Shown: piece after piece, positions 27,828 to 38,676 of the stretch | Layout of the letters: each line of letters starts with the position of its first letter | Numbering within the stretch: the first letter of the stretch is position 1 | Assembly: GCA_024404315.1 (NCBI GenBank) | Contig: JAKSQD010000010.1 | Location: 1-47,035 of the forward strand | DNA: 47,035 bases | Direction: 5' to 3' | Source of the DNA: Oscillospiraceae bacterium | GTDB lineage: Bacteria; Bacillota; Clostridia; Oscillospirales; Oscillospiraceae | Position numbers and translations under genes: made by a program | Notes under the pieces: generated by a model | Databases searched by the model: none | The model's input: only the letters and a program-made list of their open reading frames with translations | What the model was told of the DNA's origin: nothing

Positions 27828-28613
27828 TTAGTTATTGGTGAAAACGGGCTTGGGCTTGGGCTTCTCGCGGCTCATGAAGCAGCCCATACCCTCGATCTGG
27901 TCGTGGGTCTCGAAGCAGTCGCCGAAGAGCTTCTCTTCCAAAGCGATTGCGTCATCCATGTTCAGATCCAGGCCGTCATTGATGGCCTTCTTGCAGTTGC
28001 GGACGGCAATGGGAGCCTGCTTTGCGATGCCAGCGGCCATCTTCAGAGCGGCGGGCATCAGCTCCTCTGCGGGGTAAACAGCGTTGACCAGGCCAATGCG
28101 CAGAGCCTCGTCAGCCTTGATGTTGCGGCCAGTATAGATCAGCTGCTTTGCCATGCCGGGGCTGACCAGACGAGCCAGGCGCTGGGTGCCGCCGAAGCCG
28201 GGGGTGATGCCCAGACCCACTTCGGGCTGACCAAAGACAGCGGTCTCGGAGCAAATGCGGATGTCGCAGGACATAGCCAGCTCATTGCCGCCGCCCAGAG
28301 CGAAGCCATTGATGGCTGCGATAACGGGGATAGCCAGGGTCTCGATCTTACGGAAAACATCGTTGCCCTTCTTGCCGAAGGCTTCGCCCTCTGCCTTGGT
28401 GAGCTTGCTCATCTCGCCGATGTCAGCGCCAGCGACGAAAGAACGGTCTCCTGCGCCGGTGATAACGAGCGCACGAATTGCGTTGAGGTCGAGGGAGTCG
28501 ATTGCAGCATCCAGCTCCTCCAGGACGGAGCTATTCAGAGCATTGAGAGCTTTGGGACGGTCAATGGTCAGGACAGCAACAGCGCCCTGAGTTTCCAGAT
28601 TGATGAATGCCAT
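27828..28613 (-). CDS. crt: Crotonase (3-hydroxybutyryl-CoA dehydratase)
   Basis: Crt dehydrates 3-hydroxybutyryl-CoA to crotonyl-CoA. The 261 residues have the enoyl-CoA hydratase oxyanion-hole motifs GDRSFVAGADIGEM (near 60) and GFALGGGNELAMSCD (near 105), and the catalytic glutamate region FGQPEVGLGITPGFGGTQR (near 130). The start at 28613 follows AAGGAGG; a longer frame runs upstream into the promoter and is rejected. First gene of the crt-hbd-bcd-etfBA operon. Confidence 0.97.
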   Translation of the reverse strand: MAFINLETQGAVAVLTIDRPKALNALNSSVLEELDAAIDSLDLNAIRALVITGAGDRSFVAGADIGEMSKLTKAEGEAFGKKGNDVFRKIETLAIPVIAAINGFALGGGNELAMSCDIRICSETAVFGQPEVGLGITPGFGGTQRLARLVSPGMAKQLIYTGRNIKADEALRIGLVNAVYPAEELMPAALKMAAGIAKQAPIAVRNCKKAINDGLDLNMDDAIALEEKLFGDCFETHDQIEGMGCFMSREKPKPKPVFTNN

Positions 28614-28648
28614 AGCGTGGTTCCTCCTTATAAAATTCTTGAGTGAGT

Positions 28649-28666
28649 TTGTGATTTTTTTAACTA
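28649..28666. promoter_or_regulatory. Candidate Rex operator in the crt leader
   Basis: TTGTGATTTTTTTAACTA fits the clostridial Rex consensus (TTGTTAA-N4-TTAACAA) at 11 of 14 fixed positions. It lies just downstream of the expected transcription start of crt, where a repressor would block. This is an inference from motif and location. Confidence 0.4.
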
Positions 28667-28680
28667 ACTGCCTTGGAATA

Positions 28681-28709
28681 AGTATACCGCTTTTTGTCCC
28701 CGCTTGCAA
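28681..28709 (-). promoter_or_regulatory. Promoter of the butyryl-CoA operon
   Basis: On the minus strand, TTGCAA (28709-28704) and TATACT (28686-28681) are 17 bases apart, upstream of crt. Confidence 0.85.
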
Positions 28710-28902
28710 GTGAAAATCTACCAAATCCCATAAATTTTTTTTGTGCTTTTTTCCAGAAAACGGCAGAACTGCCAGTTGTCACTTATTTGTCGTTTTATGG
28801 CGGTTGCATCGCAAAAACATGGTGACAATTCGTCTAAAGGCAATCCGTTGACAAAAGATGTCTCGTTTTTGAGCCAGTGGGAATAAACCTTCGGCGACTG
28901 GT
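28710..28902. other. Intergenic stretch between divergent crt and DUF1540 genes
   Basis: No gene was seen. It contains a widely spaced inverted repeat (TTGTCAC at 28776-28782 and GTGACAA at 28822-28828) and a TATAAT at 28903-28908 that could serve the DUF1540 gene, though no good -35 stands before it. Confidence 0.4.
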
Positions 28903-28941
28903 TATAATAGACTTGTACCAAACAAAAGGAGGAATCATTCC

Positions 28942-29121
28942 ATGGAACAAATCAATAACAGCATTCATTGCAGCGTGAAATCCTGCGCTTATCACGCAGA
29001 CAGCAAGGATTTTTGCACCCTGAACAGCATCAAGGTTGGCTGCTGTGGCGACACCCGCCCCAAGACCTGTGACTGCACCGAGTGCGCTTCTTTCCAGACC
29101 AACGGCAAGACCTGCGGCTGA
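28942..29121 (+). CDS. DUF1540 cysteine-rich small protein
   Basis: A 59-residue protein with eight cysteines (CSVKSCAYH, FCTLNSIKVGCCGD, KTCDCTECASF), the pattern of the DUF1540 family found in spore-forming Firmicutes. The cysteines probably bind a metal such as zinc. The function is unknown, and a sporulation link is family-level inference only. AAAGGAGG precedes the ATG. It is monocistronic, ending at a hairpin at 29168-29200. Confidence 0.85.
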   Translation: MEQINNSIHCSVKSCAYHADSKDFCTLNSIKVGCCGDTRPKTCDCTECASFQTNGKTCG

Positions 29122-29167
29122 TTCTCTGGCGCTTCCAAGGTGAAGCATTTCTGAACAGAGTCAAAGA

Positions 29168-29200
29168 AAGGGCAGTGTTTCCACGGAGGCGCTGCCTTTT
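29168..29200 (+). terminator. Terminator of the DUF1540 gene
   Basis: AAAGGGCAG pairs with CTGCCTTTT across a short interior loop, ending in a four-T run. Confidence 0.65.
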
Positions 29201-29216
29201 CGGATGGGATGGTCAG

Positions 29217-29735
29217 TTACTCCCCCACCGCATCCAGGCTTTCTTGCGCAAGCGCTACATACTCCTTCCAATTGTGCTGTTTGGAGGCAAGTTCACGCTC
29301 TTTCACGGGGCGCACCGCTTTGGCGGGAACCCCCAGCGCCAGCGTTCCGTCAGGAAGAACCGTTCCGCCCGTCACCAGAGCACCGGCTCCAATGATACAG
29401 TTCTTTCCAATCACAGCGCCGGAAAGAACCGTTGCCCCCATGCCAATGAGCGAATCGTCCCCCACTGTGCAGCTGTGGATGATAGCGCCGTGACCAATGG
29501 TGACATTTCTGCCCAGGGTGAGGGGCTTTCCTCCGTCGCAGTGGAGAACGGCTCCGTCCTGAATGTTGGTGTTTTCGCCGACGGTGATGGGGGCTTCGTC
29601 CCCACGGAGGGTGGCGGCGTACCAGATGCTGACGTTTGCCTCACAGGTTACGCTTCCGATGACGGCAGCGTTTTCCGCTATGCGAACCGTAGGGGCAAGG
29701 GTTGGATGGATGCCTTGATAGGGTCTGATTATCAT
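29217..29735 (-). CDS. Gamma-class carbonic anhydrase-like hexapeptide-repeat protein
   Basis: A 172-residue left-handed beta-helix protein of the gamma-carbonic anhydrase/YrdA family. The metal-ligand histidines are visible in GAVLHCDGG (near 66) and TIGHGAIIHSC (near 83-90). Hexapeptide-type repeats run from about 25 to 140, then a C-terminal helix. Carbonic anhydrase activity is likely but not certain. The start at 29735 gives MIIRPYQGI, the family's usual beginning, after GGAAAGGAAG; an upstream in-frame ATG lies inside the preceding terminator and was rejected. Confidence 0.9.
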   Translation of the reverse strand: MIIRPYQGIHPTLAPTVRIAENAAVIGSVTCEANVSIWYAATLRGDEAPITVGENTNIQDGAVLHCDGGKPLTLGRNVTIGHGAIIHSCTVGDDSLIGMGATVLSGAVIGKNCIIGAGALVTGGTVLPDGTLALGVPAKAVRPVKERELASKQHNWKEYVALAQESLDAVGE

Positions 29736-29755
29736 AGCATTGCTTCCTTTCCTGA

Positions 29756-29802
29756 TATAAAAAGTCAGCCTAACGGCGGTCTCATCCATCGTCAGGCTGA
29801 CT
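29756..29802 (-). terminator. Terminator between the formate/nitrite transporter and carbonic anhydrase genes
   Basis: On the minus strand, AGTCAGCC and GGCTGACT form an 8-bp stem followed by five T. It ends the transporter unit; only read-through would reach the carbonic anhydrase gene, 20 bases on. Confidence 0.8.
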
Positions 29803-29868
29803 GATTGTTTCTGGTGTTCGTATGAAAATGGGTGGGATTTGTCTTTTTATCCCCCAGCCGATCGCTTA

Positions 29869-30639
29869 TTACTTTTTCTCCCAGCTGATGACCCAGTAGG
29901 GCAGAGCCACAAAAGCTGCGCCGCCCAAAATGTTGCCAATGGAGACAAAGAACAGGCTCTTGAAATAACCCAAGACCGGAATTACGGTGTCACCGGCGTT
30001 CAGCATACCAATCAGGATGGATGCCATGTTTGCAACGCTGTGCTCAAAGCCGCAAATCATGAAGATGAGGATGCACCAGACGGACATGATGAGCTTTGCC
30101 ACCTCGTTTTGGAGCTTGATGGAGCACCAAACGGCCAGACACACGCAGATATTGCAGAAAATTCCACGAAAAATCATCTGAACCGGGGGATAAGAGACCT
30201 TCGCCAAGGCGGTTGCCGCAAAAGCAGCCGCATGAACGGGGGCGATAGCACCGGAGAGCTGATAGAACACAGCCGTCAACACGCTGCCTGCCAGGTTGCC
30301 CAGCCAGCACACCGCCCAGAGCATCGCCACATCCGCCCAGCTGACCCGCTTTTCCAGCGCTCCGGCGGTCATGACCATATTATTACCGGTGAACAGCTCG
30401 GAACCGGCGGCAATGACCAGGCTCAAGGCGGAGGAAAAGAGCAGGGCGGCGATGAGCTTGGGCACGGTGGAGCCTGCCTCCGCAGCGAGCGAGCTCATGA
30501 CGGTGGACACCATTCCACCAAAAGCGACAAACATACCTGCCAGCATAGAGGAGACAAAATAACCCAACGGGTTCTTTTTCAGCAGGCTCAGTTTTCCTTC
30601 GGCGGCTTTGCAACAGGCCATGTAAGTATCGTGGAACAT
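29869..30639 (-). CDS. Formate/nitrite transporter (FNT) family protein
   Basis: A 256-residue channel-like membrane protein with six predicted helices. Family features are KKNPLGYFVSSMLAGMFVAF (near 22-42), SELFTGNNMVMTAG (the characteristic L-F-T-G-N loop, near 80), FRGIFCNICVCLAVW (near 158) and CGFEHSVANM (near 195). It moves formate, nitrite or a similar small anion. The substrate cannot be told from sequence, but formate is plausible in a fermenter. The start at 30639 follows AGAAAGAAG; the longer frame lacks a ribosome site. Confidence 0.92.
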   Translation of the reverse strand: MFHDTYMACCKAAEGKLSLLKKNPLGYFVSSMLAGMFVAFGGMVSTVMSSLAAEAGSTVPKLIAALLFSSALSLVIAAGSELFTGNNMVMTAGALEKRVSWADVAMLWAVCWLGNLAGSVLTAVFYQLSGAIAPVHAAAFAATALAKVSYPPVQMIFRGIFCNICVCLAVWCSIKLQNEVAKLIMSVWCILIFMICGFEHSVANMASILIGMLNAGDTVIPVLGYFKSLFFVSIGNILGGAAFVALPYWVISWEKK

Positions 30640-30710
30640 TGATAACAGCTTCTTTCTATTGTAAAATAACACAAGGAGAAAAACCACGTTTCCCCTTTAT
30701 TTGTGGCTTT

Positions 30711-30739
30711 AGGATAGCACATTGTGAAAAAACTGTCAA
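30711..30739 (-). promoter_or_regulatory. Promoter of the formate/nitrite transporter gene
   Basis: On the minus strand, TTGACA (30739-30734) and TATCCT (30716-30711) are 17 bases apart. Confidence 0.8.
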
Positions 30740-30793
30740 TCAATATTTGGAGGGGGTTGTATCAAAGCGGGGGGTATCAGTTTTCAACTTTTT

Positions 30794-30834
30794 AGGGCAA
30801 CAGCGCACAACAATCGGATGTATGTCTTGCCTTA
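30794..30834 (-). repeat. Decayed short hairpin element at the rfbB stop
   Basis: AGGGCAACAGCGCACAA...TCTTGCCTTAG matches the short derivatives at 34691 and 45528 with several substitutions and loss of part of the stem. It overlaps the rfbB stop codon (complement of TTA at 30832-30834). Confidence 0.7.
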
Positions 30835-31851
30835 GCGGTTGCCGTACATTTTTTCATAGTAGTTCTGATATTCGCCGGAAATGATGGTCTCCCACCACTC
30901 ACGGTTATCCAAATACCATTGGATGGTCTTTTTGATGCCATCCTTGAACATGGTTTCCGGCAGCCAGCCCAACTCATTATGAATCTTGGTGGGGTCGATG
31001 GCATAACGCATATCATGGCCCTTGCGGTCGGTCACATGGGTGATGAGGCTCTCGGTCTTGCCCAGCTCCTTACAAATAAGCTTCACAATGTCGATGTTTT
31101 TCATCTCGTTGTGGCCGCCGATGTTATAGATCTCTCCCACTCGACCCTTATGGATAATCAGGTCAATGGCCTTGCAGTGATCCTCCACATACAGCCAGTC
31201 ACGGACGTTCAGACCCTCGCCGTAGACCGGCAGAGGCTTGTCATTCAAGGCGTTGGCAATCATGAGGGGAATCAGCTTCTCAGGGAAGTGATAGGGGCCA
31301 TAGTTGTTGGAGCAACGGGAGATGGTCACAGGCAGACCATAGGTGCGATGATAAGCCAGTACCAGCAGGTCAGCGCCAGCCTTAGAGGAGGAATAGGGGC
31401 TGCTGGTGTGGATGGGGGTTTCTTCGGTAAAGAAGAGGTCGGGGCGATCCAGCGGGAGATCACCATACACCTCATCGGTGGAAACCTGATGGTAACGCTG
31501 AACGCCATACTTGCGGGAGGCATCCATCATGGTGGCAGTGCCCAGAATGTTGGTGTTCAGGAAGATACCGGGGTCTTCAATGGAGCGGTCAACGTGGCTT
31601 TCGGCGGCGAAGTTCACCACAATATCGGGGCGCTCCTCCTCAAAGAGCTGGAATACCGCCTCACGGTCGCAGATATCCGCCTTGACAAAGCGGAAGTTGG
31701 GGTGATCCATCACGGGAGCCAGGGTGGACAGGTTGCCGGCGTAGGTCAGCTTGTCCAAGCAGATGACACGATAGTCAGGATGTTCCTTCAGCATGTGGAA
31801 GACAAAGTTACTTCCGATAAAACCGGCACCGCCGGTTACAAGAATCGTCAT
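30832..31851 (-). CDS. rfbB: dTDP-glucose 4,6-dehydratase
   Basis: RfbB converts dTDP-glucose to dTDP-4-keto-6-deoxyglucose on the route to rhamnose and other deoxysugars of the cell surface. The 339 residues have the Rossmann GGAGFIGSN (7-15), NFAAESHVDRS (near 80), STDEVYGDL (near 125), the catalytic YSSSK (near 158), and RCSNNYGPYHFPEKLIPLMI. The ATG at 31851 follows GTGAGG. No rfbA, rfbC or rfbD is adjacent, so it is an orphan gene. It is divergent from the GTPase-nuclease gene. Confidence 0.95.
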   Translation of the reverse strand: MTILVTGGAGFIGSNFVFHMLKEHPDYRVICLDKLTYAGNLSTLAPVMDHPNFRFVKADICDREAVFQLFEEERPDIVVNFAAESHVDRSIEDPGIFLNTNILGTATMMDASRKYGVQRYHQVSTDEVYGDLPLDRPDLFFTEETPIHTSSPYSSSKAGADLLVLAYHRTYGLPVTISRCSNNYGPYHFPEKLIPLMIANALNDKPLPVYGEGLNVRDWLYVEDHCKAIDLIIHKGRVGEIYNIGGHNEMKNIDIVKLICKELGKTESLITHVTDRKGHDMRYAIDPTKIHNELGWLPETMFKDGIKKTIQWYLDNREWWETIISGEYQNYYEKMYGNR

Positions 31852-31934
31852 ATGTTTCAACCTCACAGTTTTTTAGATGGAGTACTCGCAGAGAGAAAGG
31901 ACAGATCAGCACCAAAGAATGATCTGATAAGTGC

Positions 31935-32018: not shown

Positions 32019-32047
32019 TTGAACACCGCCTTTCTTTCGGGTATACT
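32019..32047 (+). promoter_or_regulatory. Promoter of the GTPase-nuclease fusion gene
   Basis: TTGAAC (32019-32024) and TATACT (32042-32047) are 17 bases apart. Confidence 0.8.
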
Positions 32048-32081: not shown

Positions 32082-34694
32082 ATGAAAAAACTGGTAATCG
32101 GCATCATGGCTCATGTGGACTCCGGCAAAACAACCCTTTCCGAAGCCATGCTCTATCTCAGCGGCAGCATCAAAAAGCTGGGACGAGTGGATCACCGTGA
32201 CGCTTTTTTGGATAACTTCTCTTTGGAACGGGAAAGGGGTATCACCATCTTTTCGAAGCAAGCCATCCTTCCTTTGAATGGGCTGTCGGTGACGCTGCTG
32301 GATACCCCGGGACATGTGGACTTCTCCACAGAAATGGAGCGCACTTTGCAGGTGCTGGATTATGCGGTTCTGGTCATTAGCGGAACCGATGGTGTGCAGA
32401 GTCACACCGAAACCCTTTGGCGGCTGCTGAAACGTTGGAATATCCCCACGCTGCTTTTTGTGAACAAGATGGATTTGGATGGAGCCGATAAGGAACGGGT
32501 GCTGGAGCACCTCCACGCCCGATTGGACGAAAACATCGTGGTATTCGGCGGCGCTATCAACGAAAAAGACCCCGTCTTTTTGGACGAAGAAGCGCTGGCT
32601 ATGTGCGACGAGGGCTTGATGGAGGCTTATCTGGAAGAGGGCGAATTGAGCAAGGCTTCGGCGGTGGATGCAATTCGACAGAGAAAGGTTTTTCCCTGTT
32701 GGTTTGGCTCCGCTCTGCGGGTTCGTGGCGTGGGGGATTTTCTGGAGGATTTGGAGATTGTTACCCGTGCGCCGGATTACGCAGCGGAATTTGGCGCAAA
32801 GGTCTTTAAAATCGCCCGTGATAACCAAGGAAACCGCTTGACCTATCTGAAAGTGACCGGCGGAACCTTGAAAGCCAAAACCCTTCTGCATGGAGCCGCC
32901 CGGAACGGTGAGGAGTGGTCAGAAAAGACCGATCAGCTTCGGCTATACTCTGGAACCAAATTTACGCCAGTCGATACAGCAGAGGCCGGAACCATCTGTG
33001 CCGTCACCGGCCTGACGAAAACCTATCCCGGCCAGGGATTGGGCATGGAAACGGATACCGCCTCTCCCCTGCTGGAACCCGTTTTAACCTACCAGTTGAT
33101 TCTCCCCCGAGACTGTGACCCCCACGTTGCTCACAGCAAGCTGAAAGAGCTGGAAGAAGAAGACCCTCAGCTTCATCTCGTGTGGGATCCCATGCTGAAA
33201 CAGCTTTCCATCCAACTGATGGGGCAGGTGCAATTGGAAATTCTGCGAGAGATCATCCATCAGCGCTTTGATATAGAGGTGCGGTTTGGAACCGGTGCCA
33301 TTGTCTATAAAGAGACCATCGAAGCGCCGGTTATCGGCATTGGTCACTTTGAGCCGTTGCGCCATTACGCCGAGGTGCATTTGCTGCTGGAGCCTGGCGA
33401 GCCTGGCTCTGGTCTGGTGTTTGACACCGTGTGCCCGCTGGACGTGTTGGATCTCAACTGGCAGCGCCTGATTTTTACCCATCTGGAAGAAAAAGAACAC
33501 CTCGGCGTGCTGACCGGCTCCCCCATCACGGATATGAAGCTGACGCTGCTCACGGGTCGTGCTCACATCAAGCACACCGAAGGCGGCGATTTCCGCCAAT
33601 CCACCTATCGTGCCATCCGTCAGGGGCTCATGCAGGCCAAAAGCATTTTGCTGGAGCCTTGGTATCAATTCCGGCTGGAAGTGCCCCAGGAATGCCTCGG
33701 ACGGGCTATGTCTGACGTGACGCTGATGGAGGGCAGCTTTGAGGATCCCGTTTTGGACGGAGAGAACGCTGTGTTGACCGGTCGTGCTCCCGTTGCCACC
33801 ATGGGGGACTATCAAACGCAGCTGGCCGCCTACTCCAAAGGCCGTGGACGGCTGAATTGCTCCGTGGATGGCTACCGTCCCTGCCACAACACAGAGGAAG
33901 TGGTCGCCGCCCGAACCTACAACCCGGAGGCCGACTTGGACAACACGCCAGATTCTGTTTTTTGTTCCCATGGTGCTGGAACCATCGTGAAATGGAACGA
34001 AGTACCCGCTCACGCCCACTTGGACAGCTCCGCTTTTCTACAAAAGGAAGAACCCGAGGAAGAAGAGCAGCCTGTGACCGTCATTCGTCGGGGCGGCGCT
34101 GCGGCGGCGGCTTCCGACAAGGAATTGCAGGCGATTTTTGAAAAAAACTATGGCTCTGTCAAGAGTCATGATTTCCGTCCCACGCAGAAAGGCGGAAAAA
34201 AGACCATTGAAAGCTATTCAACGGACAAGCTAAAGCTGATTCAAAACTTGCAGCCGGTGAAAGAGTTTTTGCTGGTGGACGGCTACAACATTCTTTTCGC
34301 CTGGGATGAGCTGAAGCATCTGGCGGAAATGGATCTGAACGCCGCTCGGGAGCTTTTGACGGAAATGATGTGCAACTATCAGGGTTATAAGGGCTGCGGC
34401 CTGATTCTGGTATTTGACGCTTATAAAGTGCCCAACAATCCCGGAAGCGTGGAAAAGCGGGGAAATATCTTTGTGGTTTACACCAAGCACGCCGAAACCG
34501 CCGATATGTACATTGAAAAGGTCACTTATGAGATCGGCAAGCGCTATAAAGTGCGGGTGGCAACCTCCGACGGGCTGGAACAGCTCATCATTCTGGGCAA
34601 CGGAGCGCTGCGGGTGTCCGCCCGCATGTTCCGTCAGGAGGTAGAAGCGGCGGAAGGCGCTTTGCAAAACCTGCTGGATCGGTATCGTTATTAA
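32082..34694 (+). CDS. TetM-like translational GTPase fused to a Rae1/YacP-type NYN endoribonuclease domain
   Basis: An 870-residue protein. Residues about 1-650 follow the EF-G/TetM plan: P-loop AHVDSGKTT (10-18), ERERGITI switch I, DTPGH (74-78), NKMD (128-131), then domains II-V. In domain IV the loop where TetM has its tetracycline-ejecting YSPVSTPADF-type motif reads HIKHTEGGDFRQS (near 498), so drug resistance is unlikely. A linker (about 650-728) leads to a NYN domain resembling B. subtilis Rae1 (VDGYNILFAWDEL, with D733; VFDAYKV; HAETADMYIEK; ATSDGLEQL; RVSARMFRQEV). Rae1 cuts mRNA in the ribosomal A site. The ATG at 32082 follows GGAG. It forms a single-gene unit ending in a hairpin element. 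Confidence 0.9.
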   Translation: MKKLVIGIMAHVDSGKTTLSEAMLYLSGSIKKLGRVDHRDAFLDNFSLERERGITIFSKQAILPLNGLSVTLLDTPGHVDFSTEMERTLQVLDYAVLVISGTDGVQSHTETLWRLLKRWNIPTLLFVNKMDLDGADKERVLEHLHARLDENIVVFGGAINEKDPVFLDEEALAMCDEGLMEAYLEEGELSKASAVDAIRQRKVFPCWFGSALRVRGVGDFLEDLEIVTRAPDYAAEFGAKVFKIARDNQGNRLTYLKVTGGTLKAKTLLHGAARNGEEWSEKTDQLRLYSGTKFTPVDTAEAGTICAVTGLTKTYPGQGLGMETDTASPLLEPVLTYQLILPRDCDPHVAHSKLKELEEEDPQLHLVWDPMLKQLSIQLMGQVQLEILREIIHQRFDIEVRFGTGAIVYKETIEAPVIGIGHFEPLRHYAEVHLLLEPGEPGSGLVFDTVCPLDVLDLNWQRLIFTHLEEKEHLGVLTGSPITDMKLTLLTGRAHIKHTEGGDFRQSTYRAIRQGLMQAKSILLEPWYQFRLEVPQECLGRAMSDVTLMEGSFEDPVLDGENAVLTGRAPVATMGDYQTQLAAYSKGRGRLNCSVDGYRPCHNTEEVVAARTYNPEADLDNTPDSVFCSHGAGTIVKWNEVPAHAHLDSSAFLQKEEPEEEEQPVTVIRRGGAAAAASDKELQAIFEKNYGSVKSHDFRPTQKGGKKTIESYSTDKLKLIQNLQPVKEFLLVDGYNILFAWDELKHLAEMDLNAARELLTEMMCNYQGYKGCGLILVFDAYKVPNNPGSVEKRGNIFVVYTKHAETADMYIEKVTYEIGKRYKVRVATSDGLEQLIILGNGALRVSARMFRQEVEAAEGALQNLLDRYRY

Positions 34695-34785: not shown

Positions 34786-36111
34786 CTAGGGAAAGAACAC
34801 GGTCACTGTGGTTCCAACGCCCGGCTCACTTTCGAGCTGAATTTCTCCTTGGTGGAGCAGAACAATATGCTTGACGATGGACAGTCCCAGTCCCGTTCCG
34901 CCTTTGGCTTTGCTGCGGCTTTTATCCACACGGTAGAAGCGTTCAAACACCCGGCTCTGTTCCGCCTTTGGAATGCCAATTCCATTGTCCTTCACACGCA
35001 AAAACGCCTTTTTTCCACTTGTTCCCGTGGAGACGATGACAAACCCTCCGGGACGATTATAACGAATGGCATTTTCCGTGAGATTCTCGCACAACTCCTC
35101 CAACAGAGCGGCGTTTCCGTGGATGCGGACAGGCTCGCCCTCCCAAGTCAGCGTCAAATAGGCATTTCTGGCCTGCAAAAGCAGGCGTTCCACTGTTTTT
35201 TCTCCGATTTCCGCTAAATCAATGTTCTCAAGCTCCGGAGAAAGAGACAAATCGGCGGGCTGAGACTCCAGCTCAGAGAGCATGATAATATCTTGAATCA
35301 AGGCAATCATACGGCTGGCTTCCCGGTGAATCCGCTCAGAAAAGCGTGGGATGTCCTCATCCCGTACCATGCCGCTGGCCATCATCTCCGCATAACCGGA
35401 AATACCGGTCAATGGGGTTTTCAACTCATGACTGACATTGGCAGTAAACTCCCGGCGGAATTTTTCCTGTCCTTTGCGCAGGTCTCGATCCTTTGCCAGC
35501 GCTTCCGCAAGGGGTTTCAGCTCTGGATAGGGAACAAACCGTTCAATTTCTTCCAAATGACGGCCCATTTTGGTAATGGGGCTGACCAGCGAGCGGGTCA
35601 GCGTTTCCGAGAGAACAAATTCTAAAATCAGCAGCAAAACCAGCGCCAGCGCCAGCCAGGGAAGCGCCGTGAGAAACACCAGATAAATGCTGGCGGTATC
35701 CACAGACACCCGGAGCACCCTTCCATCCGAGAGAAGAATGGCCTCATAAAAGGTTTTGACCGAAAGGGTGGTGCTCATGCGCTCATCGGAGCCAACGCCT
35801 TTTTCCAGCGCCTCTTGCACCTCGGGGCGGTCTGCGTGATTTTCCAAAACACCAATGGCTTGGCTGTCGGAAAGAACGTTGCCGTCCGTGTCAATCAGGG
35901 TCAGGCGGTAATCCTCCATGGTGTCGGGCAGGCTGGAAAACTGCTGACCGGACAACTCGTACATGTTGGCATACGCCTGTCCCAAACGGCTGACATCACT
36001 TCTCACTTGCAGGGAAAACACCTGATAGTAGATGAGACAAGAGGCAAAGGATGCCAAAACCGCCCCCAGCAGTCCGGTGAAAAACATCTTGGAAAGCAGT
36101 TTTCTTTGCAT
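34786..36111 (-). CDS. phoR: Phosphate-regulon-type sensor histidine kinase
   Basis: A 441-residue membrane kinase. It has one helix at about 9-30, an extracytoplasmic sensor of about 110 residues, a second helix at about 143-168, and a HAMP-like linker. The HisKA domain carries the phospho-accepting histidine in NVSHELKTP (H228), and the HATPase domain has NAIRYNRPGG, DNGIGIP and GGTGLGLSIVKH. It should phosphorylate the PhoB-like regulator encoded one base upstream. Assignment to phosphate rests on the Na/Pi transporter and the PHO-box-like repeats in the same block. Confidence 0.92.
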   Translation of the reverse strand: MQRKLLSKMFFTGLLGAVLASFASCLIYYQVFSLQVRSDVSRLGQAYANMYELSGQQFSSLPDTMEDYRLTLIDTDGNVLSDSQAIGVLENHADRPEVQEALEKGVGSDERMSTTLSVKTFYEAILLSDGRVLRVSVDTASIYLVFLTALPWLALALVLLLILEFVLSETLTRSLVSPITKMGRHLEEIERFVPYPELKPLAEALAKDRDLRKGQEKFRREFTANVSHELKTPLTGISGYAEMMASGMVRDEDIPRFSERIHREASRMIALIQDIIMLSELESQPADLSLSPELENIDLAEIGEKTVERLLLQARNAYLTLTWEGEPVRIHGNAALLEELCENLTENAIRYNRPGGFVIVSTGTSGKKAFLRVKDNGIGIPKAEQSRVFERFYRVDKSRSKAKGGTGLGLSIVKHIVLLHQGEIQLESEPGVGTTVTVFFP

Positions 36112-36112
36112 C

Positions 36113-36805
36113 TCAATTCCTTTCTTCTGTCAGGATGTACCCCACCTTGCGGAGCGTATGGATATAGCCTCCCGCCCTGCCCAGCTTTTGGCGCAGGGTG
36201 CGGATGTGCATATCCAGCGTGCGGCTTTCCAAAGACGCTTCGCAATCCCAGACCTGATTCATGATGGTTTCCCGACTGACCGCTTTTTCCGGCGTTTTCA
36301 GAAGAAGCTTTAAAAGCTCATATTCTTTTATGGTCAATTCAATGGAGTCCTGCTCCACCATCACCTGATGTCGTCCTTCGTCCATGCGGATGGAGCCAAA
36401 GGACAAAACGGATTTGGTCTCCTCCGCCACGGGGATGGTACGCTGGCTCCTGCGCAGCAGCGCCTTGGTTCTGGAAAGAAACTCCCGGATGCCAAAGGGC
36501 TTGGGCAGATAATCATCCGCTCCCTCGTCCAGTCCCTGCACAACATCCAATTCAGCACCCTTAGCCGTAACCATCATGACGGGTAGGTTGACCGTGCGAG
36601 GGTCTCCCCGAAGGCGCTTTAAAATTTCGTAGCCGTCCAAATCGGGCAGCATGACATCCAAAATCACCAATTCCGGCGTTTCACGCTGCAAAACGTGAAA
36701 GAAACTCTTGCCGTCTGGAAAAATTTCCGCCTGCATTCCGATGGTAGAAAGGGCATATTGTTCTAAAATGGCGATGGTTTCATCATCTTCAATGATTGCG
36801 ATCAT
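36113..36805 (-). CDS. phoB: PhoB/PhoP-like response regulator
   Basis: A 230-residue OmpR-class regulator. The receiver domain has EDDE near the start, the phosphorylated aspartate in ILDVMLPD (D50) and the conserved lysine in LPKPFG. The C-terminal winged helix (about 130-228) includes LTIKEYELLKLLL and SRTLDMHIRTLRQKLG. The ATG at 36805 follows GGAGA; a longer frame runs into the leader. The 116-base gap to the Na/Pi gene holds a strong stem-loop (about 36834-36872, CTGC...GCAG arms). Confidence 0.93.
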   Translation of the reverse strand: MIAIIEDDETIAILEQYALSTIGMQAEIFPDGKSFFHVLQRETPELVILDVMLPDLDGYEILKRLRGDPRTVNLPVMMVTAKGAELDVVQGLDEGADDYLPKPFGIREFLSRTKALLRRSQRTIPVAEETKSVLSFGSIRMDEGRHQVMVEQDSIELTIKEYELLKLLLKTPEKAVSRETIMNQVWDCEASLESRTLDMHIRTLRQKLGRAGGYIHTLRKVGYILTEERN

Positions 36806-36921
36806 AGCAGTCTCCTTTAAAAGCCACAAGGACTGCTCCACGAGCAAACCACACGGCTGCTCATGGGGCAGTTTTTCCTACTTTTATTCTTATCCTACCA
36901 GAATCCGTTTCAAAATACAAG

Positions 36922-38676
36922 CTATTCCGAAAGAGCCAATCCATATCTCAGACGGTAATTTTCATATCGTTTCAGAAAACTGTCCGTCTTGCGGCATCGC
37001 TCTCGATAGGCATGGCGTTCCATTCCACCGGTCTGGGCTTCGGCAATGCCAATGGCAATGTTTGTGCAGTGACTGGAAACTCGCTGAAGATTGGTCAGCA
37101 GGTCATTCAGGCGAATGCCACTCTGAATGGTACATTCCCCATCCTGCAAGCGCTCCACATGACGCTCTCTGATATCACCAATCAGATCGGTCACAATCCG
37201 GTTGAGGAGAGAAATCCGCTGTGCTTTTTCTTCATCCGGGCTCTCCAACAGCTTGATGGTGTCCGACAGAACCTCCTGAACCGCCTGCTCCAGCACACCC
37301 AGCTCCTCCGACGCCTGAGCCGAGAAGGAAAGCTGCTGCTGTTTCATTCCCTTTGCCAAAATGGAAATGGTCAAGGCGTGGTCGCCGATGCGCTCCAAAT
37401 CGCTGATGATATGAAAGAGAACGCTGACCGTTCGGCTGTCCTCCAAGGTCAGGTCATGTCTGGAAAGCTGAACCAGATAGGACGCAATTTGATCTTCAAA
37501 CGCATCCGTAGACTCCTCATGTTCACGCACAGCGTCAAAACGCTCCTCTTCCCAGTCATTCAGCAGAGAGAGGCCTTTGAGAAAGGCCGTTTGAGACAGC
37601 TCTGCCATCTGTTTGGTGACGACCAGGGTTTGTTCCAGTGCAACGGCTGGGGTGTTCAGCAGCCGCTCGTCCAGCAGCATGACGGTTTCCTTTTGTTCAT
37701 CGTCGGGAATGGTCAAATAGGCCAGCTTTTCCAGATGACCCGTAAAGGGCAACAGACAGGCCGTTGCAACGACATTAAATGCAGTATGAACGATAGCAAT
37801 TCCAGCTGCATCTATTTTTTGAGCGAGGAAGGGGAAGGGATATACCATGTTAATGGCGTAAAAGACAACCAAAAAGGTAACAGCGCCAATGACATTGAAG
37901 TACAGATGCACAAGAGCGGTTCTCCTGGCGTTTTTGTTGGCACCCACACTGGAAAGCATCGCCGTCACGCAGGTTCCGATGTTCTGACCCATGATAATGG
38001 GAATGGCACTGCCAAAGGTGACAGCCCCTGTAGAAAGCGCCAATGCCTGCAAAATGCCCACGCTGGCAGAGGAGGATTGAATGATACCCGTCAGAACGGC
38101 TCCCACCACCATACCGAGGATGGGATTCTGGAACATGAGGAACAGATTGGTAAAGGCAGGCACTTCACTCAGCGGCTCAACGGCGTGAGACATGGTGCTC
38201 ATGCCTGTCATCAGAATGGCGAAGCCCAGGAGAATGAGTCCGATGTTCTTCCGTTGCTCCTTTTTGCTCGCCATATAGAGGAGGATGCCGATAAAGGCAA
38301 GAACAGGGGAAAAGCTGGTGGGCTTCAACAGCTTGAGGAAGAAATTGCTGCCCTGGATACCAGCAAGGCTCAAAATCCATGCGGTGACAGTGGTTCCCAC
38401 ATTGGCTCCCATGATGATGCCGATTGCCTGAGAAAGCTGCATAATGCCGCTGTTGACGAAGCCGACCACCATAACCGTTGTGGCAGAAGAGGACTGAATG
38501 ACTGCGGTAACAAGCAGACCGAGGAAAAAGCCCTTCATACGGTTGTCGGTTAAGTGACGCAGGATGGTTTGCAGCTGACTACCCGCCTGCTTTTCCAAGG
38601 ATTTTCCCATTGTGTCCATGCCAAAGAGAAAGAGCGCAAGCCCTCCCAGCATGGAAAACAGATTAAAGATACTCAT
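36922..38676 (-). CDS. Na/Pi cotransporter family protein with PhoU-like domain
   Basis: A 584-residue protein. The membrane half (about 1-320) has the duplicated PNaS signature, with QSSSATT (near 62) and QSSSASVG (near 200), plus MGANVGTTVTAW and MGQNIGTCVTAM. The C-terminal 220 residues are a helical PhoU-like domain (LERIGDHALTI near 440, SHCTNIAIGI near 550). It imports phosphate with sodium, or may couple transport to PhoR signalling through the PhoU part. A PHO-box-like pair lies about 60 bases upstream. It is transcribed toward phoB and phoR. Confidence 0.94.
   Translation of the reverse strand: MSIFNLFSMLGGLALFLFGMDTMGKSLEKQAGSQLQTILRHLTDNRMKGFFLGLLVTAVIQSSSATTVMVVGFVNSGIMQLSQAIGIIMGANVGTTVTAWILSLAGIQGSNFFLKLLKPTSFSPVLAFIGILLYMASKKEQRKNIGLILLGFAILMTGMSTMSHAVEPLSEVPAFTNLFLMFQNPILGMVVGAVLTGIIQSSSASVGILQALALSTGAVTFGSAIPIIMGQNIGTCVTAMLSSVGANKNARRTALVHLYFNVIGAVTFLVVFYAINMVYPFPFLAQKIDAAGIAIVHTAFNVVATACLLPFTGHLEKLAYLTIPDDEQKETVMLLDERLLNTPAVALEQTLVVTKQMAELSQTAFLKGLSLLNDWEEERFDAVREHEESTDAFEDQIASYLVQLSRHDLTLEDSRTVSVLFHIISDLERIGDHALTISILAKGMKQQQLSFSAQASEELGVLEQAVQEVLSDTIKLLESPDEEKAQRISLLNRIVTDLIGDIRERHVERLQDGECTIQSGIRLNDLLTNLQRVSSHCTNIAIGIAEAQTGGMERHAYRERCRKTDSFLKRYENYRLRYGLALSE

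Follow-up and report, generated by a model that had tools for sequence, protein, structure and literature searches.

A 47,035-nucleotide stretch from an Oscillospiraceae bacterium (assembly GCA_024404315.1, contig JAKSQD010000010.1, positions 1-47,035), called the window here in its whole length, contains a gene whose single unbroken reading frame encodes a NYN_YacP (Rae1) domain behind an EF-G-type GTPase of five domains. The fusion is real and conserved, and its architecture has been known since 2015. On balance we lean towards the view that it serves Clostridia in housekeeping or under stress, as a Rae1 nuclease tied to a dedicated EF-G-like GTPase and acting as a ribosome-dependent endonuclease of messenger RNA (mRNA). 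As judged from sequence comparisons, the balance shifts away from antibiotic resistance and towards a Rae1-type role in translation.

The joined frame was first pointed out in a sequence-only reading of the window, and Pfam searches confirmed its domains in a protein of 870 amino acids (aa), whose numbering is used for all residues below. That reading knew of no functional description of such a protein, but it is not new, since a paper of 2015 had already presented the architecture and ventured a function: a Tet-NYN fusion was reported in ten Clostridiales species, and resistance through RNase activity was suggested (Atkinson 2015, PMC4342817; this and the other papers are cited here from excerpts of their text). 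A literature search that covered few subscription journals found no functional study of the fusion.

The GTPase module

Conservation was assessed in 61 aligned fusions (the window, 58 loci from 57 genomes and 2 plasmid records) and in a second set of 71 rows (the window and 70 loci), which may overlap with the first; of 80 loci, 7 were excluded for incomplete or untrimmed frames, and 3 had no matching 500-codon frame. The protein combines G motifs with domains II-V, as a translational GTPase of the EF-G/EF2 superfamily does. The claim that its G motifs are intact is borne out by the alignment of the 61 fusions, in which D13, G15, K16, T17, T18, T55, D74-H78, K129 and D131 are invariant, while H11 is conserved in 98% and N128 in 95%. 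Together with the nuclease residues described below, this means that both active sites of the fusion are conserved, and the protein looks active.

By its sequence, the GTPase is not of the TetM type. Its body is 27% identical to TetM, 29% to an OtrA homologue and 29% to the EF-G of its own genome, while TetM and the OtrA homologue share 35% identity. In TetM, Pro509 overlaps with the site of the drug (PMC7456112, PMC8161019), and the position set opposite it, by the numbering of an aligned TetM copy, is Lys497 in 57/61 fusions and in 71/71 rows of the second set, in line with the earlier claim that the domain IV loop lacks the tetracycline-ejecting motif. TetM, O, W and 36 have SPVSTPADFR in loop III, and these four, the OtrA homologue and an OtrA-like protein (6/6 compared) share G-[LI]-[YFH]-G-W in loop II, a criterion that is an observation of the present analysis. 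Neither motif occurs in the window, in two other fusions or in four unfused kin, and loop II of the fusion family resembles that of EF-G.

These data bear on the idea, printed in 2015, that the protein shields the ribosome from tetracycline or some other antibiotic of the A site, the RNase assisting in this. Besides that suggestion in print (PMC4342817), it can draw on the best NCBIfam match, the tetracycline protection model NF012153 at 405 bits, and on the database label 'TetM/TetW/TetO/TetS family tetracycline resistance', which is present on one fusion (another is labelled 'translation factor GTPase family protein'). However, 405 bits is far below the equivalog cut-off of 775, the scores for Otr(A) (316 bits, cut-off 900) and for the EF-G equivalog TIGR00484 (290.7 bits, cut-off 659.4) are likewise under their thresholds, and both the TetM-type loop III and the six-protein loop II motif are missing. 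Absence of the TetM loop III alone does not exclude resistance, because the two OtrA-type proteins also differ from TetM, O, W and 36 there. A horizontally spread resistance gene was rejected as the main reading: just 2 of 1224 matching plasmid records contain most of the query, the two plasmid records inspected were typed as non-mobilizable, no neighbour family is widespread, and genomes assembled in one contig (e.g., G172, G281 and G364) place the gene on a multi-megabase contig. We therefore judge protection quite improbable, and the tetracycline resistance label, suspected of being wrong from the outset, is poorly founded by scores and loops and probably wrong. In a 2020 screen in E. coli, 10/17 predicted tetracycline genes, all mechanisms taken together, conferred no resistance (PMC7725328).

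The nuclease module and its likeness to Rae1

The NYN_YacP domain of the window scores 152 bits against a curated Pfam cut-off of 24.6. Among the matches listed, Foldseek and VIA searches with the whole model returned GTPase rows only, so the NYN domain was folded and searched alone, and the fold it is predicted to adopt is that of Rae1. The acidic residues D733, D779, D808 and D830, whose conservation had been named beforehand as decisive for a nuclease, are present in 61/61 fused and 26/26 standalone NYN domains; N736 is likewise invariant in the 61 fusions, and in the second set all of these residues are kept except one D830. In a tree of NYN domains, one branch (support 81) splits the 61 fused from the 26 standalone domains.

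Rae1 is described as a ribosomal A-site endonuclease that has been proposed to enter stalled ribosomes (PMC6613710). A C-terminal motif, [EDQ]x[ILMWV]R[RK] within the last 16 residues (again a criterion observed in the present analysis), occurs in 25/26 standalone domains versus 5/61 and 6/71 fused ones, and the window lacks it. Standalone proteins end, for instance, in L-E-K-I-R-R, and B. subtilis Rae1 in F-E-K-W-R-R, which includes R166; R166P was found among efp suppressors and taken as loss of function (PMC6613710), and structure 5mq9 is a crystal of W164L Rae1. The motif may thus be an element for contact with the ribosome that became superfluous once the GTPase was present. The genomic setting differs as well. 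sigH is found with the standalone gene in 25/26 loci and rlmB in 21/26, compared with 3/138 and 4/138 fused-type loci (138 of 140 were searched, L103 and L104 being left out), a contrast made more telling because most standalone loci span only some 3 kilobases (kb) and most fused loci are longer.

The lack of the motif bears on a second explanation, in which fusion serves joint expression only: the GTPase would assist elongation or recycling in the manner of EF-G, and the NYN domain would be an independent, ordinary Rae1. Separate modules in 15/391 genomes, a lone GTPase in 8 and a tether predicted to be disordered all agree with it, but it leaves the lack of the motif in fusions (5/61 vs 25/26) unexplained, and the fusion has been maintained over wide divergence; we regard it as unlikely.

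Two unusual cases touch on this comparison. Genome G385 carries a standalone NYN gene (locus L032) that lacks the C-terminal motif and lies nearest the fused group in the NYN tree, its 14-kb surroundings contain no rlmB, mrnC or sigH match, and the GTPase is on a different contig (L032, L200, L250), which probably makes it a split fusion. In G198, a 345-aa frame (L099:5130-6167) contains tail and NYN with no intact GTPase frame, reflecting an assembly error or a pseudogene; it falls outside both groups in the NYN tree.

Occurrence across genomes

Among 148 genomes (the window's own and its relatives), NYN_YacP was found in 74, and in 70/74 it lies in frames of at least 847 aa; within the genus, 30/32 genomes (own included) have the domain. 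The 80 named carrier stretches, which were those that match the window best (of at least 599 stretches and at least 574 relatives) and do not cover the whole range, bear names that include Oscillibacter, Lawsonibacter, Flavonifractor, Faecalibacterium, Gemmiger, Ruminococcus, Butyricicoccus and Blautia.

A class-wide draw of 391 genomes, surveyed for the same fusion and for separate rae1 as the sequence-only reading had proposed, gave NYN_YacP matches in 249 (248 over the cut-off) and the tail motif in 164. Tail and NYN share one frame in 139 genomes (the frame reaches 780 aa or more in 128 and is shorter in 11), are separate genes in 15 and unresolved in 2 (G366, G481); 93 genomes have NYN only, 8 the GTPase only and 134 neither. 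The 11 short cases (contig ends, breaks, and maybe a shorter protein in G363) were scored as fused because tail and NYN matches share a contig and lie in a frame of equal length, and G148, G282, G374, G530 and G525 were assigned by follow-up searches. The NYN-only group includes 49 genomes with listed frames of 168-216 aa, and G389, with a 20-bit partial match under the cut-off. A standalone NYN accompanies the fusion in 1/139 genomes (G470), whereas NYN is found outside a fusion in 108/252 of the others (15 + 93); G281, G343 and G384 were rejected as further exceptions, the second match in each being a 21-bit partial one below the cut-off. Because fusion and standalone NYN almost never share a genome, the fusion seems to behave as a replacement for separate Rae1, and this near-exclusive occurrence, with the separate-gene counterparts (15/391), strengthens the link to Rae1 first drawn from the sequence.

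In 61 genomes of the wider phylum, 36 were over the NYN cut-off, with frames of 169-197 aa in 32 and 308 aa in one; three were of fusion size, namely the window's own and those of G533 and G537. The latter two (G533:C16, 884 aa; G537:C60, 880 aa) lie outside the window's class, where the fusion is probably present too. Taken together, the phylum and class counts make standalone NYN the general form and the fusion a derived one, common in the class and not confined to it.

Unfused kin and the origin of the fusion

Unfused relatives of the GTPase were found twelve times in the class, once on a Ligilactobacillus salivarius megaplasmid (a 644-aa protein with 49% body identity) and, as two near-identical copies, in IMG/VR contigs, and they stop within about 20 residues past the tail. 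Four compared in detail share both the tail and the loop III sequence H-T-x-G-G-D-F-R, which assigns these features to the GTPase rather than the nuclease. In an 81-row GTPase tree the unfused proteins are nested among the fused ones (3 changes), while a 45-row tree places two unfused rows at the base; both use EF-G and TetM as long-branch outgroups. Trees constrained to a single clade of all fused (p 0.629) or all unfused (p 0.637) proteins score above the free search and are not rejected. On these alignments, one fusion or fission event suffices, and the GTPase trees fix no direction.

Some of these proteins are of interest in their own right. The tail ends in H-C in 11/13 unfused GTPases (L187-L198 and L100, with L187 and L188 as exceptions) and mostly in H-[LVI]-E/D in fused ones. 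With C601 and C628, the H-C end might form a metal site, and in the fusion tail C601, C628, H630 and H646 are candidate zinc-site residues. The L. salivarius gene (L100:5402-7920) adjoins rpsN (S14) and a gene for a putative metal homeostasis protein, making a link to metal stress possible. The two IMG/VR copies (L185:1-2181 and L186) are 726-aa proteins with two extra insertions at contig starts, and their DNA is probably the host flank of a provirus.

Proposed mechanism

The mechanism that we propose begins with a stalled ribosome whose A site is vacant. Here, the GTPase body would bind the factor site, with domain IV and its loop (K-H-T-E-G-G-D) sitting in the decoding region. Upon GTP hydrolysis the GTPase would be released and domain IV would retreat, allowing the NYN domain, kept near by a tether of about 70 residues, to move into the A site and cut the mRNA; alternatively, the cut might be made on a collided neighbouring ribosome. 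Transfer-messenger RNA (tmRNA), whose gene is present in the same genome, could then release the ribosome. Ribosome-dependent action, proposed to occur at the A site, has been printed for Rae1 (PMC6613710) and not for the fusion, for which we infer ribosome binding, A-site cleavage, the order of events and GTP gating. The sequence-only reading had the nuclease delivered by TetM-like docking, which does not hold as stated. In TetM and EF-G, domain IV fills the region that Rae1 is proposed to enter (PMC8161019, PMC7456112), and because both need the A site, a hand-over, sequential use or a neighbouring ribosome is required. By our rough estimate, the roughly 48 low-confidence tether residues could span such distances.

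A more specific version is offered tentatively. It is conceivable, with the odds against it, that the GTPase senses the stall and that hydrolysis lets the tethered NYN domain take over from domain IV in the A site, with one mRNA cut per GTP, made on its own ribosome or on a collided neighbour. Such a GTP-gated nuclease would be a single-polypeptide no-go-decay machine. We know of no bacterial rescue factor of this kind.

Several observations weigh against the reading as a ribosome-dependent mRNA endonuclease. Domain IV and Rae1 compete for the same site, the mechanism rests on sequence and model data, and the motif argument depends on one point mutant (PMC6613710). The gene is absent from 74/148 genomes, including that of G021, which belongs to the same genus and is rated 100% complete; it is thus dispensable over evolution. 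Eight of the 391 genomes have an unfused GTPase and no NYN (that of G379 is broken into two frames), which implies that the GTPase is of use on its own. Nor is the neighbourhood conserved, any neighbour family, with neighbours clustered and not annotated, being found in at most 10/58 fused loci. The counts themselves have limits: the 26 standalone domains are the 25 best-scoring matches plus that of G470 and no random draw; the NYN match is listed in the long frame in 84/128 genomes, and for 44 fused genomes only the long frame of the tail is listed, the single NYN match being presumed inside; frame sizes are missing for 43/93 NYN-only genomes; and neither the genome counts nor the exclusivity of fused and standalone forms are corrected for shared descent.

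Dispensability also bears on a third explanation, that the protein helps to assemble ribosomes or to mature RNA. Here the GTPase would check subunits, on which EF-G-like GTPases are able to act, while the NYN domain trims ribosomal or transfer RNA. NYN domains have been proposed for maturation of both RNAs (cited in PMC4342817). However, Rae1, the closest relative of known function, acts on mRNA in translation (PMC6613710), and a dispensable gene argues against such a role, which we consider highly improbable.

Gene layout and neighbourhood

The features of the gene are collected in Table 1. In the tail, which is the terminal part of the unfused GTPases as well, C601, Y613, D618, S625, F627, G631 and W638 are invariant in the 61 aligned rows. 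L682 and G691 are invariant, in alignment A3, in the tether, which is predicted to be flexible or disordered. Promoter-like matches in the scanned stretch numbered 4, against a mean of 1.7 (standard deviation 1.5) in shuffles, and an Rfam scan of the window gave no match at gathering score.

Table 1. Features of the fusion gene and its upstream region, in window coordinates.
Feature	Position	Strand	Evidence
Complete gene, EF-G-like GTPase and NYN_YacP (Rae1-like) nuclease domain, 870 aa and stop	32082..34694	+	Frame, Pfam, 61 aligned fusions
G domain, residues 4-224; P-loop AHVDxGKTT, DTPGH, NKxD	32091..32753	+	Pfam GTP_EFTU, motif conservation
Domains II and III, residues 237-403	32790..33290	+	Pfam EF-G_D2, EFG_III
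Domain IV, residues 407-520	33300..33641	+	Pfam EFG_IV
Domain IV loop III, H-I-K-H-T-E-G-G-D (495-503); Lys497 = aligned TetM Pro509	33564..33590	+	Alignments
Domain V, residues 523-603	33648..33890	+	Pfam EFG_C
Family-specific tail, residues 600-655	33879..34046	+	Alignment; confident in structure model
Predicted tether: low-confidence 659-674 and 694-725 flanking conserved helix 674-690 (D-x-EL-x-x-IFE-x-x-YG)	34056..34256	+	Predicted local distance difference test (pLDDT)
NYN_YacP nuclease domain, residues 730-863; acidic D733, D779, D808, D830	34269..34670	+	Pfam, alignments
Weak sigma-70-type promoter-like match, 9/12; consensus match only	32019..32047	+	Scan upstream of gene

Upstream in the window (27828-31866, minus strand) lie genes for an enoyl-CoA hydratase, a hexapeptide-repeat protein, a formate/nitrite transporter and a nucleotide-sugar dehydratase family protein. 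Convergent with the fusion gene (34786-38676, minus strand) are a histidine kinase, a response regulator and a Na/Pi cotransporter with a PhoU domain, a phosphate-type set; the family holding the kinase recurs at 6/59 places (58 loci and the window). A conserved operon was sought and rejected, with none in the 58 fused loci and any shared neighbour in at most 3/13 unfused loci. On an Agathobacter plasmid (L104:2961-6426), the fusion adjoins an opposite-strand BrnT toxin and CopG antitoxin pair. The GTPase itself can travel, because unfused kin occur in Lactobacillaceae and IMG/VR contigs.

A defence gene was rejected, as PADLOC-DB profiles gave 0 families at an E value of 0.001, and a phage gene is not favoured. 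The viral contigs hold 2 relatives, and these are unfused GTPases situated where the contigs begin, but 13 phage records match the NYN domain. In the unannotated faecal 'Bacteriophage sp.' records MT835563.1 and MT835514.1 (H64, H65), the NYN domain is 69% and 55% identical to that of the window and may be either host DNA or a real phage gene.

Significance and comparison with known systems

If the proposed role is true, about one-third of the class-wide draw of Clostridia (139/391) handles stalled translation with a fusion factor, gut carriers including Faecalibacterium, Ruminococcus, Oscillibacter, Flavonifractor and Gemmiger, and the database resistance label inflates resistome counts. The fusion would offer a handle on how Rae1 reaches the right ribosomes and on what many uncharacterised EF-G paralogues do, and its fused, separate and GTPase-only states would be natural experiments.

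The fusion of Atkinson 2015 (PMC4342817) has the same architecture as far as it is described there; added here are the survey counts, the unfused kin and the apparent replacement of Rae1. In B. subtilis Rae1/YacP the nuclease stands alone, while in the fusion it lies behind a GTPase, lacks the W/I-R-R/K motif and is encoded outside the rlmB-rae1-sigH locus. The TetM/TetO/OtrA protection proteins share the five-domain EF-G-type GTPase but are 27-30% identical to the fusion and differ from it in loops II and III and in the C-terminal tail. EF-G and its EF-G2 paralogues have the same fold and G motifs, whereas the fusion, about 29% identical to the EF-G of its own genome, has its own tail and a fused nuclease. 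The mislabelling has a parallel among these paralogues, as one sequence appears as TetQ in structure 7uvp and as B. thetaiotaomicron EF-G2 in 8dmf.
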